NCBI RefSeq assembly: GCF_002998435.1
Contig: NZ_CP027231.1
Location: 3,297,795 to 3,361,794, forward strand
Length of the DNA: 64,000 nt
Reading direction: 5' to 3'
Origin: Bacteroides zoogleoformans
Lineage (GTDB): Bacteria; Bacteroidota; Bacteroidia; Bacteroidales; Bacteroidaceae
A model generated the notes under the pieces. The model was not told the origin of the DNA and made no database searches. It worked only from the letters and a program-made list of their open reading frames with translations. Below, piece after piece: positions 20,881 through 34,435 of this stretch. Made by a program: the position numbers and the translations under genes. Numbering within the stretch: the stretch's first letter is position 1; every line of letters begins with the position of its first letter.

Positions 20881-22051
20881 CTTTAGTCTTATGTAAAGTA
20901 TAAAATAATTTCGTCGGCCATATAACTAAAAAAAGAACGAAATCATGGCAAGGACAAAAATTGTGCTTTTCAAAAGCAATATTAGAAGAGACGGAAGCGC
21001 TGCCCCGTCTGTTTAAGGGTAGCAAAAGAGGACAAAACAAAGTACATCGACTTGCAACTGTCGGCAACGAAAGGGCAATGGGACGAACAGACATCCCGAT
21101 TTAAAAAAGACAAGCGTGTCAATCCTAACTACGAAAATTACAATGCGTTGCTGAACCGTTATGAAGTCCGAAAAGATGAAATCCTGCAAAAGTTCATGGA
21201 GGAACGGGTAAACTGGACGCTTAACCAGTTCGAGGAAGAGTTTCTTGGTATGTCAAAGCAGGGTAAAGTTTATGACTACTTCATGCAACAGGTGGAAAAC
21301 CTAAAAGCCACAAGGCATATCGGTAATGCAAAGGTCTATGAACGTACCTTGCACATGCTGGTAAAGTACGATGACAAGATTGAGGAACGGCTGTTTTCGG
21401 AGTTGGATGTAAGGTACATCAATCGGTTTAATCTTGAGATGGAAAAAGACGGCTGTTGCGGAAACACCCGTAAATACTACCTCAAAACATTGAGGGCGGT
21501 TATAAACAAGGCGATAAAAGAGCGTGAAGCCTCATCAAACACCTATCCTTTCGGTAAGGGTGGCTTTGAAATCGGTAAGCTGGCAGAAGAAACAGCCAAA
21601 CGCTACCTTTCACCACATGATTTGGAGCTGATAAAAAACTCGCCTCAACAAAATCCTGTGTTGGAGTTGTCCCGTAGGGTGTTCCTGTTTTCCTATTTAT
21701 GTTTCGGTATGAGTTTTATAGATGAAGCCATGCTGACTAAAAACAATATTGACACGTTTGGGACAGAGGAGCATATCGTTTATAAAAGGCAAAAGACACA
21801 GAACGCTAAAAATGCAAAGCCTATAACAATACCCGTAACCCCTGCCATAAGAGAACAGTTGGAGTGGTTTAAGGCAAATACTACTTTGACAGGCAACTAT
21901 TTGCTTCCAATAATAACAAGGGATTATGAGGGGGAACAACTGTATGACCATATCCGTAGTCGTTACAAACGTATAAATGACGGTTTAAAGCAATTAGGCA
22001 AGTTGCTTCGTATCCGTATGAGCCTGACCACCTATGTCAGCCGTCATACAA

Positions 22052-22057
22052 TGGCCA
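22052..22057. repeat. Target duplication of the IS982 element, left copy
   Basis: TGGCCA here and at 23086-23091. The original target ATGGCCAT is itself palindromic, so 4-6 bp of duplication fit equally well. Confidence 0.65.
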
Positions 22058-23085
22058 ACCCGTTGGCGGAATTAAATCAGTGCGTACTTAATCCTACCTA
22101 TGGGTTTGTTGTTAATGTAATTGATGTATTGTAATGCAGTCAGGGCACTGACTTTGCCCACTATTCGGGCAAAAAGGCCGCATGTTTCTTTTGCGTAGTT
22201 CCTGATGACGAGGAACTGGTCTGTAAGTTGTGAGAACAGAGTTTCAATCCTCTTTCTTGCCTTTGCAAAAGGAATGAAGGCCGGCTTCCAGTTCTTTTGG
22301 TTGAGCCTGTAGGGACACTCAAGCCTGATGTTGGCCGTCTCGAAGAGGTCAAGCTGGATTTCCGCTCCGATATATCCCTTGTCACCGAATATGCTACAAT
22401 CGTGGTAAAGCGGCTTGATGTCATTCAGATAGTTGATGTCGTGAACACTCGCCTTGGACAGGTCGTATGAATGTATGACACCGCTTAAGCCACAGAGTGC
22501 GTGAAGTTTATATCCGAAGAAGTAACTGCCTTGGGATGCACAATAACCGAAGTCAGGGGCTTTGTGGAAATCACCAATACGTCCCATCTTACATCTCTTA
22601 CCACGAGCCACACGGCACACTTCTATTGGCTTTGAGTCTATGCAGAAGTAATCCTCGCCACCATCTATATGATTGGCCATGCGGCTGCGTATCTGCTCAC
22701 AAAGACCACTAACCAACTTGCGGCGGTCGTTGAACTGACGGCGGGAGATAAGGTTGGGGATGGAAGAACGGCACTCCTTCAACTTCGCTTCAAACAGCCA
22801 GTTCTCGCTGTCTATCTCCTCAGCCTCGGCAGCCATGCTCAATGCGATGACTTCCAAATCGGAGAAACGAGGCACAGGGCCTGGACGACGAACATTTCCA
22901 GCTTCAGTAACTAAATCTTCGGAGAATTCCTTGCATATCTCCAGAATTTTGACGAACTTTGTATACAAGTTGCACATAACGAGATTATATAACTTAAATA
23001 TTGAATACTCTAAGTTACTAAAAATCTGCGATATATGCAACTTTTTCTTATACATTTTGCCAACTATTTAATTCCGCCAACGGGT
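22058..23085 (-). mobile_element. IS982-family insertion sequence (1028 bp)
   Basis: Perfect 20-bp terminal inverted repeats, ACCCGTTGGCGGAATTAAAT at 22058-22077 and its complement at 23066-23085. It carries one transposase gene on the minus strand whose stop codon lies inside the left repeat. It is inserted in the integrase gene between the RHT and GH/Tyr motifs, removing integrase function. Removal of the unit with one target copy restores a continuous reading frame. Confidence 0.9.
22072..22977 (-). CDS. IS982-family transposase
   Basis: 301 residues from the ATG at 22977 (an in-frame ATG at 23055 would add 26 residues). DDE-type features of the family are visible: YFCIDSKPIEVCRVARGKRC, FGYKLHALCGLSGVIHSY with VHDINYLND, and IFGDKGYIGAEIQLDLFET, then the Glu in RKRIETLFSQLTDQF. 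It appears intact and may be active. Confidence 0.88.
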   Translation of the reverse strand: MCNLYTKFVKILEICKEFSEDLVTEAGNVRRPGPVPRFSDLEVIALSMAAEAEEIDSENWLFEAKLKECRSSIPNLISRRQFNDRRKLVSGLCEQIRSRMANHIDGGEDYFCIDSKPIEVCRVARGKRCKMGRIGDFHKAPDFGYCASQGSYFFGYKLHALCGLSGVIHSYDLSKASVHDINYLNDIKPLYHDCSIFGDKGYIGAEIQLDLFETANIRLECPYRLNQKNWKPAFIPFAKARKRIETLFSQLTDQFLVIRNYAKETCGLFARIVGKVSALTALQYINYINNKPIGRIKYALI

Positions 23086-23227
23086 TGGCCATGACCTTAC
23101 AAGGCAATGAAGTTCCCCGTGAAATTATCAGCCAAGCGTTGGGGCATCGTAATCTTACAACGACAAACGTATATCTTGACAGTTTTTCAACAAGCGTATT
23201 AGACAGAATAGCTAAAATCCTTTAATT

Positions 23228-27383: not shown

Positions 27384-27477
27384 ACCAACTATTCTTCTTT
27401 TTGCCAACGGCTACCATATTGGCATGATTAACAAATGGTTGGTATATATACATGAAAACGTGGAGCCAGTCCTGTCA

Positions 27478-27541
27478 CTCGTTCCACAGTGTAAAGGCTC
27501 TGGCATCGCCCAAGTTGTCGAAACGAGCAACGCCGAAAGCC
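27478..27541 (+). ncRNA. Candidate H-type pseudoknot RNA (copy 1)
   Basis: Order of paired blocks: CTCGTT (27478-27483), GGCT (27496-27499) plus GGC (27502-27504), then AACGAG (27522-27527), GCC (27532-27534) and AGCC (27538-27541). The second stem crosses the first, giving an H-type pseudoknot like that before abiF. It is followed by a TACGTATATAG tail. No consensus promoter was found, so the transcribed strand is uncertain. Confidence 0.4.
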
Positions 27542-27730
27542 CCACGCCTGTGTACGTATATAGAAAGCACTCTCGACAATGAACGATAAATCGTCCAAAG
27601 CCAATGAGGGCTGTATACAATACACCTCATGAGGCGTTCCCGTTGCTTTGTTCTTGACAACTTTTGCTCGAACTGCCAGATTCTTACACTGTCAAAACCA
27701 AAGCGTACAGTTACGCCTTATATGTATATA

Positions 27731-27778
27731 TGTCTGCCCAACCTCTGCCCATCGGGGCTTTCGGTATGGGTATAGACA
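27731..27778 (-). ncRNA. Candidate pseudoknot leader RNA facing the HxsD-like gene
   Basis: On the minus strand TGTCT pairs with AGACA (top 27774-27778 and 27731-27735); inside, CCCAT pairs with ATGGG (27766-27770, 27748-27752) and GCCC with GGGC (27755-27758, 27736-27739) in crossing order. The -7 box TACCTTTG at 27782-27789 would start transcription right here. It is followed by an ATATATACATA tail. Confidence 0.42.
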
Positions 27779-27781
27779 ACA

Positions 27782-27789
27782 CAAAGGTA
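27782..27789 (-). promoter_or_regulatory. -7 box directed towards the Hxs-like genes
   Basis: TACCTTTG on the minus strand fits TAnnTTTG. No TTTG is found at the correct -33 distance. The HxsD-like start is about 390 nt downstream. Confidence 0.4.
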
Positions 27790-27913
27790 ACAATTTTACA
27801 TCAGAATCTGTTTTGTTTGGCTGACAAAACGTGATTTTACCACCTGATTTAACATTATTAAATATAAATATGTCAAAGAATTCCACTTTTGCATGATTTT
27901 TCTCGTTAAAAAG

Positions 27914-27944
27914 TTTGTATTCTCAATGATTATTCGTATCTTTG
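27914..27944 (+). promoter_or_regulatory. Promoter of the abiF RNA and abiF-TOTE genes
   Basis: TTTG (27914-27917), exactly 19 bp, TATCTTTG (27937-27944): a perfect match to the Bacteroides promoter pattern. It is directly followed by the pseudoknot RNA. Confidence 0.75.
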
Positions 27945-27999
27945 CATCGTCAGTTCCCACCAAGCCTCTCAACGATGCTCAAATGCGTGGGGCTTTTTT
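27945..27999 (+). ncRNA. abiF-associated H-type pseudoknot RNA
   Basis: CATCGT (27945-27950) pairs with ACGATG (27972-27977) and CCCAC (27956-27960) pairs with GTGGG (27987-27991); the stems cross. A T run follows (27994-27999). An alternative stem, AAGCC (27962-27966) with GGCTT (27991-27995), would form a terminator-like hairpin using one of the same bases. A conserved abiF RNA motif upstream of AbiF-family genes has been described from comparative genomics; this one is in the same position. Whether it acts as antitoxin RNA or cis leader is not shown here. Confidence 0.62.
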
Positions 28000-28030
28000 G
28001 TATATATACGTTCACTCTCAAAATACGCTA

Positions 28031-28942
28031 ATGGAAAGATTACCGCACTTTACGAAACATTATATGGCAGAGACAGACTTGGTGGCTCTGTTGGAAAGTC
28101 GTGGACTTGTCATTTCTGATGAGACTAAAGCGGTGCGGTATTTGGAGAGCATTGGGTATTATCGTCTTTCCGCTTATATGTACCCATTCTTGAAAGTTCC
28201 AAAGGAATCCCATCAATATAAAGAGGGGGCAACTTTTCAGCAAGTGCTGAATCTCTATCGCTTCGACAAAAAGTTGCGTATGCTTCTTCTCAATGAGATT
28301 GAGAAAGTAGAGATAGCTATTCGTCGTGCCATTATGAATATTCCAGTGCAGATGACAGGAGACATTTATTGGCTGACAAATTCCATTCACTTTGCCAACC
28401 AACGAACTTTTCAAGAGACCACGAACACCATTGACAGAGAATACGCTAAATCAACAGAAGAGTTCATCAAGCATTTCAAGAACAGCTATTGCGACCCATA
28501 TCCTCCATCATGGATTTTGGGAGAGTTGCTGACAATGGGCAATGTGAACATGGTTTATCGTAATATGAAAGCAGATAAGATACGTAAGCGCATCTCGCAT
28601 TACTTCGGTTTGCAGCCAATTGTCTTGGAATCTTGGATAACATCTTTGACCTTGTTGCGAAATGCCTGTTGCCATCATTCAAGGGTGTGGAACAAGGTAA
28701 GTTCAATCATGCCTGTTTCTCCAAGAAGAATTGCACATCTTTGGATTACCCTGCCATCAAACCCTCAAAGAGTATATTTCACAATCTGCATCATCAAGTA
28801 TTTCCTTGACATCATATCACCTAACAATGATATGTTGGGAAAGATGCACACGCTATTTTCCAATTATCCAGAGATAGATCTGGCAGCTCTTGGATTTCCG
28901 AATGGATGGGAGAACGAACCGTTATGGACACAACGGATGTAA
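28031..28942 (+). CDS. AbiF/AbiD (Abi_2) family HEPN protein
   Basis: 303 residues from the ATG at 28031. An upstream in-frame start at 27893 is rejected because promoter and RNA lie after it. The N-terminal half has VALLESRGLVISDETKAVRY and IGYYRLSAYMYPFL, typical of Abi_2. The C-terminal half carries the HEPN ribonuclease motif R-x4-H in LRNACCHHSRVWN. Members block phage growth, probably by RNA cleavage. The gene overlaps the next one by 19 bp or more, so the two are likely co-translated. Confidence 0.85.
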   Translation: MERLPHFTKHYMAETDLVALLESRGLVISDETKAVRYLESIGYYRLSAYMYPFLKVPKESHQYKEGATFQQVLNLYRFDKKLRMLLLNEIEKVEIAIRRAIMNIPVQMTGDIYWLTNSIHFANQRTFQETTNTIDREYAKSTEEFIKHFKNSYCDPYPPSWILGELLTMGNVNMVYRNMKADKIRKRISHYFGLQPIVLESWITSLTLLRNACCHHSRVWNKVSSIMPVSPRRIAHLWITLPSNPQRVYFTICIIKYFLDIISPNNDMLGKMHTLFSNYPEIDLAALGFPNGWENEPLWTQRM

Positions 28943-31809
28943 GTGTTCTTGCCCAAAGAATTCAAGAATTGGAAAAGGAAAACGCCAGACTTAAAGCGAT
29001 TCTTGACAAGAATGGGATAGAATATAAATATTTAGAACACAGAACCTGTGAAACTAATCAGACGGAAGTAACACCTGTTTCCACTTGTCAATTCACTTTA
29101 CAAGAAAAGGTAGCCATATTCCAAAACTTGTTCCAAGGTCGAGATGATGTTTTTGCCAGGCGTTGGTATAGCAGTACAACTCAAAAGTCTGGCTATCAAC
29201 CATTATGCAAGAGAGAATGGAATCGTGAGTTTTGCGACAAGCGAAAATACAAGTGTGCGGATTGTCCCAACAGGCAGTTCGCTCCTTTGACATATAACGA
29301 CTATTTCAATCATCTTGCAGGAAAGGATGCTTGGGGGCGTGATGTTATCGGACTTTATCCAATACGAAAAGACAACACTTGTCGTTTCCTTTGTACAGAT
29401 TTTGATGACAAGAGCTGTGAGCATGGTTACAAGAATGATGTGCTCGCTTTTGTAAATGTTTGCAAAACTTGGAATGTACCATGCTATATCGAACGTTCAC
29501 GTTCTGGTAATGGTGCTCATGTGTGGATATTCTTTGGAACGCCAATTACAGCTTTCAAAGCACGCAAGTTGGGAAATGCTATTCTTACAGAGGCAATGAA
29601 TAATGATGTCCATTTGTCTCTCAAATCATACGACCGTTTCTTTCCTAACCAAGACACCTTACCCGAAGGAGGACTTGGCAATCTTGTTGCCTTGCCACTG
29701 CAAGGTATGGCAAGGCGCAAAAGAAACAGCGTGTTTGTTGATGAAGATTTCAATGCGTATGCTGACCAATGGGATGTGTTATCACAAATACATAAGTTGT
29801 CGGAAGGAGAGCTTGATTGGTTGTTACGGAAGCATACTGTACCAACATTGGGTGAACTTTCAAAGACCAGCGAAGCAAAGCCTTGGGAAACACCTCAAAT
29901 AGATGCGACGCAAACAGACAACTATCCAAAGCAAATAGTTCTGACAAGAGCGAACATGCTTTATATTCCTTTGGCAAACCTATCTGCAAAATGTGTGAAC
30001 GTATTCAAACGTATAGCAGCGTTTCGCAACCCCGAATTTTACGAGAAGCAAGGAATGCGCCTTTCTACTTACAATATTCCACGCATTATTTCGTGTTCGG
30101 ATATGAAAGACGACTACCTTGTCCTTCCTCGTGGTTGCGAGGATGCGGTTTGTGACATCCTAACACAGCATGATGTCAAGATTACAATCTCCGACAGAAC
30201 AAATCATGGACGTAGTATCAATGTTACGTTCAGGGGAGAACTTCGAGAAGAACAGCAAAAGGCAATGGAAGCCTTTGATGAGCATAATATCGGCACTTTG
30301 TCTGCAACAACTGCGTTTGGAAAGACTGTGTTTGCCATAGGAATGATTGCAAAGAGAAAGGTCAACACACTAATATTGGTTCACAACAAGGCATTGCTTG
30401 AACAATGGAAAGAGCGGTTGGAAACGTTCCTCAAAATAGACGAAACAATAGAAGAACCAGAAACAAAACGAGGCAGGAGAAAAAAGAAGTCTTCCGCCAT
30501 TGGCTGCTTACACGCAGGCAAGAACTCGCTGCATGGCATAATTGATATTGCTTTGATACAATCTTGTTTGAACGATGGCGAAGCAAAGCCATTTGTCAAA
30601 GATTACGGCATGGTTATAGTCGATGAATGTCATCATGTTTCCTCTGTCAGTTTTGAGCAAGTGCTTCGACAAGTAACAGCTACCTATGTCTATGGTTTGA
30701 CTGCGACTCCAATCAGAAAAGACGGTCATCAACCTATCATCTTTATGCAATGTGGAAAGATTAGATTCATATCTGATGCCAAGAGCCAAATGGAAAACCA
30801 AGGTTTCAAACGCTTGTTGATTCCGAGATTCACAACATTCAGAAATATTACATCAGATAGTAAGACTTACGTTCAAATTACACAAGACCTGTCTGAAGAT
30901 GAAGTTAGAAATGAATTCATTATAGAGGATGTGAAGACTGCCATTCAAAATGGACGAACTCCGTTAGTGCTTACAACTCGTACTGCCCATGTAAGAGTGT
31001 TAGCGCAAATGCTAATTCCATTTGCCGACCATGTAATCCAACTCGTTGGTGCAGACTCTGCTAAAGAAAAACGTCTTGCACTACAAAATCTACAATCAAT
31101 GTCCACATCAGAATCACTTGTGATTGTGGCAACAGGAAAGTATGTAGGTGAAGGTTTCGATTATCCTCGCCTTGATACTTTATTCCTTACTATGCCTATA
31201 GCCTGGAAAGGAAACGTGGAGCAATATGCTGGGCGTTTACATAGAGAATATGCAGGAAAGACCGAAGTGCGTATTTATGATTATGTGGATATTCATGTTC
31301 CTCTTTGCGACTCTATGTATCGTAAACGTTTGAAAGGGTATTCAAAAGCTGGATACGGAAAGAATGTGGCATCATCCACATTTGACAAAAATCCCCAAGA
31401 ACTTATATATGAACGAAACAATTACGAAGCGCCATTCCGTAATGATTTGTCAAAAGCCCAGCACTCTGTTGTTATTGCTGTTCCAAAAGTGAAGTTTAAA
31501 TACAAACCTGCCATTATATCAGCTCTTACAAATCTTCTTCATGAAGGTGTAGCTGTGGCTGTACATATCAAAGAGGAAGGGGCTAATGAGATGGAACTGG
31601 CAAAAGCAGGAATAGATGTGGTGTGCAACAAGGTACAAACCTTACAATGCGCTATCATAGACAAATCTATTGTTTGGTATGGGAATATAAACTTCTTTGG
31701 CTGCAACTCTGAAACAAACAATGTCATGCGAATTGTTGACTACAAAATAGCCAACGAAATGATAGATATTCTATACTCTGACTCGGGAAATGATGTAAAT
31801 GGAAGTTAA
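28924..31809 (+). CDS. TOTE-type conflict protein: primase, SF2 helicase and PLD-like domain
   Basis: 961 residues from the ATG at 28924; MGERTV at 28906 is an alternative. Order: short coiled coil (5-35), archaeo-eukaryotic-type primase (about 60-310) with the metal pair D159/D161 in CTDFDDK and H199 in SGNGAHVWIFF, SF2 helicase with Walker A TTAFGKT (K467), DECHH (D567), GLTATP and QYAGRLHR (767), then a PLD-like C-terminus ending CAIIDKSIVWYGNINFFG. The usual H-x-K of PLD nucleases is absent. This matches proteins described as TOTE conflict systems. The start overlaps the abiF stop. Substrate and trigger are unknown. Confidence 0.8.
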   Translation: MDTTDVSVLAQRIQELEKENARLKAILDKNGIEYKYLEHRTCETNQTEVTPVSTCQFTLQEKVAIFQNLFQGRDDVFARRWYSSTTQKSGYQPLCKREWNREFCDKRKYKCADCPNRQFAPLTYNDYFNHLAGKDAWGRDVIGLYPIRKDNTCRFLCTDFDDKSCEHGYKNDVLAFVNVCKTWNVPCYIERSRSGNGAHVWIFFGTPITAFKARKLGNAILTEAMNNDVHLSLKSYDRFFPNQDTLPEGGLGNLVALPLQGMARRKRNSVFVDEDFNAYADQWDVLSQIHKLSEGELDWLLRKHTVPTLGELSKTSEAKPWETPQIDATQTDNYPKQIVLTRANMLYIPLANLSAKCVNVFKRIAAFRNPEFYEKQGMRLSTYNIPRIISCSDMKDDYLVLPRGCEDAVCDILTQHDVKITISDRTNHGRSINVTFRGELREEQQKAMEAFDEHNIGTLSATTAFGKTVFAIGMIAKRKVNTLILVHNKALLEQWKERLETFLKIDETIEEPETKRGRRKKKSSAIGCLHAGKNSLHGIIDIALIQSCLNDGEAKPFVKDYGMVIVDECHHVSSVSFEQVLRQVTATYVYGLTATPIRKDGHQPIIFMQCGKIRFISDAKSQMENQGFKRLLIPRFTTFRNITSDSKTYVQITQDLSEDEVRNEFIIEDVKTAIQNGRTPLVLTTRTAHVRVLAQMLIPFADHVIQLVGADSAKEKRLALQNLQSMSTSESLVIVATGKYVGEGFDYPRLDTLFLTMPIAWKGNVEQYAGRLHREYAGKTEVRIYDYVDIHVPLCDSMYRKRLKGYSKAGYGKNVASSTFDKNPQELIYERNNYEAPFRNDLSKAQHSVVIAVPKVKFKYKPAIISALTNLLHEGVAVAVHIKEEGANEMELAKAGIDVVCNKVQTLQCAIIDKSIVWYGNINFFGCNSETNNVMRIVDYKIANEMIDILYSDSGNDVNGS

Positions 31810-32164
31810 ATACGTTAAATATCACCCATTTCGTATCTATATAGAATCCACATTGTCACTTTTTCTACCGTTTAGAGCGTAGAATACTGATAATCAATCA
31901 GTAATAGATACTACTCCTGGAAGCGTTTAGCTTTATCCCGTTTTAGAAATTCTGGTAAAATTTCATGTGGTACAGGGATAGACGATACAAACGTTCATGC
32001 TAATCTTTTATATATCAGTGATATATATGGCTTGGCGTGGGGTGTCGTTTTATCTTGTACCACGGGTTTACCAGAGCCTCTAAAACAGATAATTCTAACA
32101 GCCTCACGCTTTCTTTTTATATAAACCTTTCCTATTGGGGCTGTGGGGAGCAAATCACAGTATT
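31810..32164. other. Intergenic region (355 bp) with a long interrupted inverted repeat
   Basis: No gene is seen. Apart from the structure at 31940-32086 there is a short hairpin-like stretch near 31865-31885 (TTCTACCGTTTAGAGCGTAGAA). Confidence 0.6.
31940..32086. repeat. 147-bp multi-helix inverted repeat (candidate RNA or MITE)
   Basis: Nested pairs in order: GTTTTAGA (31940-31947) with 32079-32086; CTGGTAAA (31952-31959) with 32067-32074; GTGGTACA (31967-31974) with 32056-32063; GATA (31977-31980) with 32051-32054; ACGA (31982-31985) with 32045-32048. At the tip TATATATCA (32009-32017) pairs with 32019-32027. Bulges between the helices are unequal, as in a folded RNA. Confidence 0.72.
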
Positions 32165-32782
32165 ATGAAAAAGTTTCTTGTGATATGGATTGTTGCTGCT
32201 GTGTTAATAAGCTGTAATAGTAAGAATGTTCATCAAGAACCTGTACCAACAAGTGGAGAACTTATTGATATAGGAGTAAGATTGATTAATGCATACTCCA
32301 CTTTAGTTAATTTAGGGGGTGAAGCAAATGTCAGCCTTGACAATCTTGAGGCTGTCTTAAAGCATTACGAAAACAAATATCCCTATTTCAAAAAGAATGA
32401 TTCGATACCTTTAGGACAAGGAATAAGGTGTGAAGCTATGACAGCAGATTCAATATCATTTAGTTATTGGGCATATCATGTAAAAGATTCCATTCAGTTC
32501 TCAATTACAATCCAAGCTCCTCTATTTATAGGGAAAGGTGAGCCAATGGCTTTACTGGATACTTTAATCGACAAATCATTAGATTTGAGCTTAATAGGAA
32601 CATATAAAGACCTATACGAACTTCCTGACCTTATGTATTATATCAAGGGAAGCAAATCACACCCGTTACATGGGAAATTTTGGGGTACAGGCTGTATGAT
32701 AACAGCGTTTTACAATAAGGATATGGAAAAGACTTACAGCGAGTTAAGAGAGTATTGTAAACGATATAATCGTATGAGATAA
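32165..32782 (+). CDS. Predicted lipoprotein of unknown function
   Basis: 205 residues from the ATG at 32165. The N-terminus MKKFLVIWIVAAVLISCNSK is a lipoprotein signal with a cysteine at residue 17. The mature part is mixed alpha/beta with GVRLINAYSTLVNLGGEAN and a later GKFWGTGCMITAFYN stretch. No domain is recognised. It is A+T rich and sits in the cargo region behind the structured inverted repeat, 34 bp before another exported protein, so the two may form a unit. Confidence 0.7.
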   Translation: MKKFLVIWIVAAVLISCNSKNVHQEPVPTSGELIDIGVRLINAYSTLVNLGGEANVSLDNLEAVLKHYENKYPYFKKNDSIPLGQGIRCEAMTADSISFSYWAYHVKDSIQFSITIQAPLFIGKGEPMALLDTLIDKSLDLSLIGTYKDLYELPDLMYYIKGSKSHPLHGKFWGTGCMITAFYNKDMEKTYSELREYCKRYNRMR

Positions 32783-33768: not shown

Positions 33769-33788
33769 TATTATTAAAGAACAAATGC

Positions 33789-34109
33789 ATGAATGTAGAA
33801 TTTGAAAAAGAGTATTTGGTAGAACTTTACGAAAAAGGAAAGACTGATGATAAGAAACATCGATTTCAGCCTCAAATTATCAATGGCTATTTGAAGTGTG
33901 TTAAGGCTCTATTGAATGCTTCCCGAATGGAAGATTTATATCAATATAGAGCTTTGAACTATGAAAAGTTGAAAGGTGATAAAAAAGGCCTTTCTTCTTT
34001 GCGTATCAATGACCAATATAGGTTGGAATTTCGGGAAATTACCAATGCAGGCAATCAAACAGTTGTAGAAATATGTTCTTTGGTAGATATTACGAATCAT
34101 TATAAATAG
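33789..34109 (+). CDS. higB: HigB-type (RelE superfamily) toxin
   Basis: 106 residues from ATG at 33789; the longer frame from 33714 would begin before the promoter. The core LNYEKLKGDKKGLSSLRIND and QYRLEFREI is typical of HigB/RelE ribosome-dependent mRNA endonucleases. The toxin gene precedes the antitoxin gene by 5 bp, the HigBA order. Close to the right end of the element, it may stabilise it. Confidence 0.85.
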   Translation: MNVEFEKEYLVELYEKGKTDDKKHRFQPQIINGYLKCVKALLNASRMEDLYQYRALNYEKLKGDKKGLSSLRINDQYRLEFREITNAGNQTVVEICSLVDITNHYK

Positions 34110-34114
34110 GAACT

Positions 34115-34435
34115 ATGAGTATAACAGCGAACAATTTACAATCATTCCGTCCCTACCATCCGGGAGAACTGGTTAAGGAAGAATTGGAATGCAGAGGCAT
34201 AAAACAAAAAGACTTTGCAAAGAAGTTTGGTTTGTCTTATTCCGCTTTAAATGAGACGTTAAATGCAAAACGACCAATAACCACTGAGTTTGCTTTGCTC
34301 TTAGAGGCGGCTTTAGGTATCAATGCCGATTTGCTTGTAAGGATGCAAACAGACTATAATATACAAGTGGCACGAGAAAATAATTCTTTACTTGAAAAGT
34401 TGAATAAAATAAAGAAGATAGCTGCTGTATTTTAA
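34115..34435 (+). CDS. higA: HigA-type antitoxin (XRE family)
   Basis: 106 residues. It begins with the HigA pattern FRPYHPGELVKEELECRGIK, then an XRE helix-turn-helix KDFAKKFGLSYSALNETLNA and PITTEFALLLEAALGINADL. It should bind and neutralise the HigB toxin encoded just upstream and repress the shared promoter through the palindrome at 33726-33746. Confidence 0.88.
   Translation: MSITANNLQSFRPYHPGELVKEELECRGIKQKDFAKKFGLSYSALNETLNAKRPITTEFALLLEAALGINADLLVRMQTDYNIQVARENNSLLEKLNKIKKIAAVF

Follow-up and report, generated by a model that had tools for sequence, protein, structure and literature searches.

An RNA-preceded AbiF gene joined to a partner-exchanging primase-helicase gene in Bacteroides zoogleoformans

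Introduction

Does a toxin gene that overlaps a primase-helicase gene form one conserved defense system with it, or is it one of several partners that such an enzyme may acquire? The question is raised by a locus of Bacteroides zoogleoformans in the window analyzed here, a stretch of 64,000 nucleotides (nt) that corresponds to positions 3297795–3361794 of the single-contig genome (3.36 Mb). On its + strand lie, in this order, a promoter-like site, an abiF RNA, the AbiF gene, and a gene for a large primase-helicase, with the following features.

27914–27944, + strand: promoter-like TTTG-N19-TATCTTTG, 11 nt 5′ of the abiF RNA
27956–27992, + strand: abiF RNA (RF03085; Rfam match), a nested bulged hairpin and the predicted RNA antitoxin of AbiF
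27993–27999, + strand: possible terminator, C and six T after the hairpin (by eye)
28031–28942, + strand: AbiF, an Abi_2 HEPN protein of 303 amino acids (aa), predicted RNase toxin (PF07751, PADLOC AbiD model, PDB 8vz6)
28658–28675, + strand: HEPN motif R210-x4-H215 of AbiF (checked on the translation)
28924–31809, + strand: AEP primase–SF2 helicase–phospholipase D (PLD)-like protein of 961 aa (PF22548, PF04851)
29104–29817, + strand: AEP-TOTE primase domain, residues 61–298 (PF22548, 324 bits)
30238–30717, + strand: ResIII helicase domain, residues 439–598 (PF04851, Pfam)
31369–31788, + strand: C-terminal PLD-like domain without HxK (profile search, alignment)

The open reading frames (ORFs) of AbiF and the primase-helicase share 19 nt (37 nt with the in-frame ATG at 28906 as start codon), and the primase-helicase start at 28924 falls inside the AbiF codons for EPLW. 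The original prediction, made from the sequence of this locus, had described this overlap of start and stop and had proposed that the two proteins are made together. The gene order and the overlap are confirmed, and the overlap makes co-expression likely.

Occurrence of AbiF and the Primase-Helicase

AbiF and the primase-helicase, which is TOTE-type here by the name of its Pfam domain only, are not a conserved pair. Among 399 genomes of the family, 41 encode the primase-helicase protein (E 1e-40 or better) and 129 carry the abiF RNA. AbiF is absent from all 41 TOTE loci other than the window, with flanks read as far as the contigs go; some contigs end a few hundred nt 5′ of the TOTE gene (such as those of the comparison loci L094 and L168), so the missing AbiF is less telling there. 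Conversely, a full TOTE gene follows AbiF at none of 25 other distinct AbiF loci, counted where the AbiF end is intact and at least 400 nt lie downstream (29 rows, with three loci present twice, that is, 26 distinct loci including the window; AbiF is incomplete in some, namely L012, L179, and L186). An ORF of at least 80 aa starts near the abiF stop in 9 of the 29 rows, several of these ORFs being of doubtful reality, and 5 of 20 newly fetched abiF RNA loci have no AbiF match (L178, L180, L181, L191, L194).

Nineteen further genomes of the family contain both; among the matches listed for them, which lack the RNA places of genome G978 and one of those of G968, the two stand on separate contigs or are at least 19 kb from each other. 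The abiF RNA occurs in 20 of the 41 TOTE genomes and in 109 of the 358 others (Fisher p 0.02, from tables read by eye and uncorrected for relatedness and completeness). A conserved AbiF–TOTE system is therefore rejected by the counts at both kinds of locus; the original prediction had itself proposed counting co-occurrence, and its suggestion of a pairing is largely undone by genes that are usually unlinked.

Exchange of Upstream Partners in Bacteroidales

What is kept at these loci is the position of the primase-helicase gene. In Bacteroidales, its start coincides with or lies close to the stop codon of a preceding ORF on the same strand at 32 of 41 loci, where coupling is defined by an ORF of at least 80 aa whose end lies no more than 130 nt before and no more than 30 nt after the position of residue 9 (the loci include the window, omit L158, which has too little upstream sequence, and hold the near-copies L162/L163 and L092/L093/L169). 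Random positions have an upstream ORF end in this interval in 2439 of 16400 cases. A coupled downstream ORF is found at only 1 of 35 loci, unchanged when any start codon is allowed, and this near absence of a downstream partner is a sharper signal than the upstream coupling. The Bacteroidales primase-helicase gene is thus usually the last of a short operon.

The upstream partners comprise AAA_14-DUF4143 ATPases, ATPase_2 proteins with or without DUF234, AbiEii nucleotidyltransferase toxins, XRE-type helix-turn-helix proteins (often behind a SLFN_AlbA_2 protein), a HATPase_c_4 protein, AlbA_2-Fic_C, DUF3307, DUF2971, a metallophosphoesterase (Metallophos), one unknown family, and, here, AbiF; further AAA_14 and XRE cases are assigned by similarity. 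These families are unrelated to one another. On a tree of 38 primase-helicase proteins, 16 changes are required for 16 partner labels ('none' included), close to the minimum possible of 15, a count inflated by the labels AAA14a to f, which were split by eye.

The origin of the AbiF join is best seen in the nearest relatives. The window protein and that of L157 are sisters (support 100/100, 79% identity) within a clade of eight (100/99), and all seven other members have an XRE gene directly upstream, preceded in five of the seven by an AlbA_2 gene (none is matched in L087, and in L158 the contig stops before the place where one could be seen). BLASTN similarity between the window and L157 is confined to the TOTE gene (29097–31781). 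Because the window nests among seven relatives that all have the upstream XRE gene, and because similarity to L157 lies only within the TOTE gene, AbiF most simply appears to have replaced an XRE-type partner.

Remnants of the junction suggest that the joining predates this genome. L012, a metagenome-assembled genome of Prevotella, retains the junction together with the initial 26 codons of the TOTE gene, beside a damaged abiF; in L009 (Bacteroides sp. Marseille-P3684), the 25 nt that follow the abiF stop agree at 16 positions (as against 3 of 20000 random placements), and about 15 TOTE codons are probably kept. The match of 12 of 25 nt in L007 (224 of 20000 random placements) is suggestive only, and L011 has nothing of the kind (5 of 25 nt). 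On the other side of the TOTE gene, the flank of the abiF cassette resumes directly:

31805–31911, + strand: downstream flank of the abiF cassette, common to L008, L014, L016, and L017 (sequence comparison)

In L008, the abiF cassette stands without a TOTE gene, and the flank seen after the window TOTE gene comes about 70 nt after abiF. Partial abiF copies occur in L014, L015, L016, and L017, the last three on one scaffold of Hallella multisaccharivorax, and because of these partial copies the cassette seems mobile and prone to decay.

Promoter and abiF RNA

The promoter that the original prediction had placed before the RNA is borne out by the comparison. TTTG-N19-TATCTTTG, which we take to be the Bacteroidota promoter form, has five matches in the window where 0.25 are expected by chance, and a relaxed form (spacer of 18–20 nt, 10–12 nt 5′ of the RNA) precedes the RNA at 21 of 28 distinct abiF RNA loci, these being the loci that match the RNA pattern, window included.

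The RNA itself matches Rfam RF03085 with 52.9 bits (gathering threshold 37, E 5.5e-7), and its 37 nt fold into a bulged hairpin (−11.6 kcal/mol, z −2.15). An alignment of 15 distinct abiF RNAs (identical sequences collapsed; L011 added; L006 left out as under the Rfam cut-off, and L129, L130, L135, L144, and L154 as not readable in register) pairs columns 1–6 with 31–36, 8–10 with 22–24, and 14–15 with 19–20, with standard pairs in 98.8% of cells. Two-sided pair changes are seen at 5 pairs (1 of 500 shuffles as high) and in 13 cells (0 of 500), and the window RNA deviates from the nested hairpin at pair 6–31 only. An H-type pseudoknot, as first proposed for this RNA without coordinates, was tested as a single stem (columns 18–21 with 28–31); this stem has no compensating pair, and 19–30 is broken in 11 of the 15 RNAs. 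Covariation therefore speaks for the nested hairpin and not for the pseudoknot stem tested.

AbiF and the Primase-Helicase Protein

AbiF matches PF07751 with 192.5 bits, and R210 and H215 on its translation form the R-x4-H that we take to be the HEPN motif, as originally described. Of the PDB chains, 8vz6 alone matches at E ≤ 1 (E 9e-114); this chain is PbAbiF bound to its RNA (PMC12373285). R-x4-H is likewise given as a HEPN motif elsewhere (PMC3710099).

The primase-helicase had been described as a TOTE-type primase–helicase–PLD protein; the primase and helicase domains and the PLD fold hold, whereas the window protein lacks the catalytic HxK and no further TOTE parts are found among the ten proteins scanned. 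Residues D159, D161, H199, and D273, presumably catalytic, align with the chain 7nqd (letters checked), and the helicase motifs look intact by eye. Profile searches place the C-terminal domain in the PLD fold (4ggj, E 2.4e-4; 1byr, E 4e-4). The motif of HKD phospholipase D nucleases is HxK(x4)D; its D and G-x-x-N are kept in all 17 aligned members, the catalytic His is absent in 16 of the 17, and the window protein lacks both His and Lys. Because of these losses, an HKD-active PLD nuclease is rejected, and a nuclease role of this domain appears unlikely.

Searches for these proteins in viruses gave little: five stretches in viral contigs matched the primase-helicase and none was confirmed, AbiF and the AbiF–TOTE junction had no match in viral contigs, and no place in phage records covered 80% of the primase-helicase query. 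Phage matches to it begin at residue 306 or later (among the 20 of 1111 records listed).

Relation to Known Systems

The upstream half of the locus resembles C. difficile AbiF-RCd22 and PbAbiF (8vz6) in its Abi_2 protein, its R-x4-H, the one promoter-like site found, and its RF03085 hairpin RNA directly upstream, with one RF03085 match here versus two motifs in RCd22 (PMC12373285). The proposal that this RNA acts as an antitoxin of AbiF is accordingly in line with what is already published for relatives (PMC12373285, PMC12737573). Unlike in AbiF-RCd22 and PbAbiF, a primase-helicase gene overlaps the abiF 3′ end here.

TOTE conflict systems are named after TPR, OB, TBP, and Effector (PMC12458937). 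The AEP-TOTE primase domain PF22548 is shared with them, but no TPR, OB, or TBP match is found in the ten proteins scanned between 21052 and 34435, that is, in the two proteins and eight neighbors (unscanned ORFs include 32135–32782). Because these parts were not found, the locus is not assigned to the TOTE systems proper.

The chains 7nqd and 7nqf, which we take to be a CRISPR-associated primase-polymerase (PDB label, TPR_REGION domain-containing protein), share AEP homology and aligned active-site residues with the window protein, which differs from them by its fusion to an SF2 helicase and a PLD-like domain. Between 19000 and 35000 there is no CRISPR-like repeat array, nor is there a Cas domain among the ten proteins scanned.

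A further relation is to the HEPN toxins joined to restriction systems as a suicide backup (PMC3710099): in both cases, a member of the HEPN RNase family stands beside a helicase-bearing protein. Here, by contrast, AbiF is encoded by a separate, overlapping gene with the abiF RNA upstream, and no methylase or HKD-active nuclease domain is recognized in the AbiF/helicase pair.

Both halves of the locus thus belong to known families. Among the listed matches from the open-access papers searched, no title or abstract opening deals with AbiF together with TOTE, and none deals with such a helicase whose upstream partner changes while its start stays at the partner's stop.

Possible Function of the Joined Unit

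What the sequence itself shows is the set of parts with their overlapping frames, the promoter and hairpin, the variety of upstream partners at other loci, and a tree favoring replacement of an XRE gene. Tentatively, and with slightly more doubt than confidence, we prefer the reading that the abiF RNA/AbiF unit and the partner-swapping primase-helicase joined here form a two-layer phage defense. Most transcription would stop after the short abiF RNA, and read-through would yield AbiF and the helicase together, possibly with translational coupling at their overlap; premature termination with a read-through transcript, together with an RNA antitoxin and toxicity or growth arrest, is reported for C. 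difficile AbiF (PMC12373285). In the first layer, the helicase would act on or attack invading nucleic acid. AbiF, predicted to be restrained by the abiF RNA, would form the second by stopping growth if the first layer or host transcription is blocked. AbiF may then serve as an exchangeable module for guarding and expression, not as an obligate subunit of the helicase. This reading is favored because of the RNA control of C. difficile AbiF and because a suicide-backup role has been proposed for HEPN RNases linked to restriction systems (PMC3710099). The recurring promoter spacing, the upstream coupling at 32 of 41 loci as against 1 of 35 downstream, the unrelated partners, the tree, and the cassette flank that resumes after the TOTE gene also count for it.

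Several observations weigh against it. Compared with long ORFs in general, the TOTE gene is coupled upstream only moderately more often: of 174 long ORFs at these loci, with TOTE counted among them, 85 have an upstream ORF end in that interval (binomial p 1e-4 for the TOTE excess). Nine of the 41 TOTE loci are uncoupled upstream. Among nine loci on Pseudomonadota plasmids (L103 without annotation), shorter relatives of the primase-helicase often stand apart, with close upstream genes annotated as HigA (L104), TniQ (L105), and a 47-aa ORF (L198), and TniQ 143 nt upstream in L200; because of these relatives, the coupling is, as far as examined, a property of the long Bacteroidales form. AbiF is usually without a TOTE gene, none of the 25 other distinct AbiF loci having a full one downstream, and the TOTE gene has decayed beside AbiF in L012 and probably in L009, so selection for the pair looks weak in those genomes. 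As for the switch between RNA and read-through, the C-T6 stretch 3′ of the hairpin was not listed by the terminator scan, and the abiF RNA with its flanks (53 nt) folds no better than chance (z −1.00).

A tighter link between the two proteins would follow if phage replication structures are recognized by the primase-helicase, which then itself frees AbiF from its RNA, AbiF being the effector of a single system. In the original prediction, the primase-helicase could be a sensor of phage DNA or R-loops. The overlapping frames, the intact-looking active residues of both proteins, and the presence of toxins such as AbiEii among the other upstream partners are consistent with such a sensor, but one direct contact would be hard to maintain because the partners are unrelated in fold and sequence, and AbiF loci are mostly without a TOTE gene; we consider this account rather unlikely. 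An obligate AbiF–helicase complex is likewise disfavored because the TOTE gene is lost beside AbiF and the partners are unrelated. At the other extreme, the two may be defense genes of a mobile region that were joined by chance recombination and share a transcript but no function. This explanation, which we regard as unlikely, gains from the single intact AbiF–TOTE case, from the repeated decay of the junction, and from the integrase and transposase genes nearby; it accounts poorly for coupling that is so frequent upstream and nearly absent downstream, for a helicase start codon inside the AbiF frame, and for traces of the same junction in one, probably two, other genomes. A broader idea, which we hold to be improbable, is that the Bacteroidales primase-helicase is a universal plug-in, a nucleic-acid-sensing enzyme that is attached via its start codon to any upstream toxin, ATPase, or regulator and gives each a phage trigger, in this case an RNA-guarded HEPN toxin of Cas13 ancestry.

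Neighboring Elements

Just 5′ of the abiF promoter, a non-coding element on the minus strand (27445–27795) forms a single long hairpin when folded (z −6.47, 0 of 100 shuffles), with compensated change at 24 of 110 predicted pairs in a four-sequence alignment; no Rfam family matches the element at E ≤ 1. Of 41 genomes of the genus, 20 contain matches, mainly partial ones; this genome is among the 20 and has a second copy. In five places, copies or parts adjoin genes that look defense-related, with names given by eye: beside VWA–phosphatase–kinase triads (L215 4110–4385, L216 4027–4274), by a methylase-like gene (L219 3568–3830), by a Cas9-like fragment (L218 3767–3831), and beside a decayed AlbA_2-TOTE locus (L165 2457–2770). 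Those in L217 and L220 have no defense-like neighbors.

Further away, a gene resembling transposases, flanked by perfect inverted repeats of 27 nt (22051–22077 and 23066–23092), seems to have split an integrase gene whose start is at 21052 (whole region 21052–23092). Downstream of the operon, a HigB-like toxin gene and an HTH_3 gene (33774–34435) are likely a toxin–antitoxin pair. On two alphaproteobacterial plasmids (L105, L200), the TOTE helicase gene follows the transposition genes TniB and TniQ.

Implications

A helicase kept at the end of its operon while its upstream partners are exchanged provides a natural experiment in the assembly of defense operons. Should the enzyme act as a trigger for its partners, many effectors could be studied with a single protein, and the example of AbiF would tie the helicase to RNA-controlled toxins of the kind from which Cas13 is said to descend (PMC12737573). 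If it does not, the family would offer a clear example of guard modules attached to a defense enzyme.

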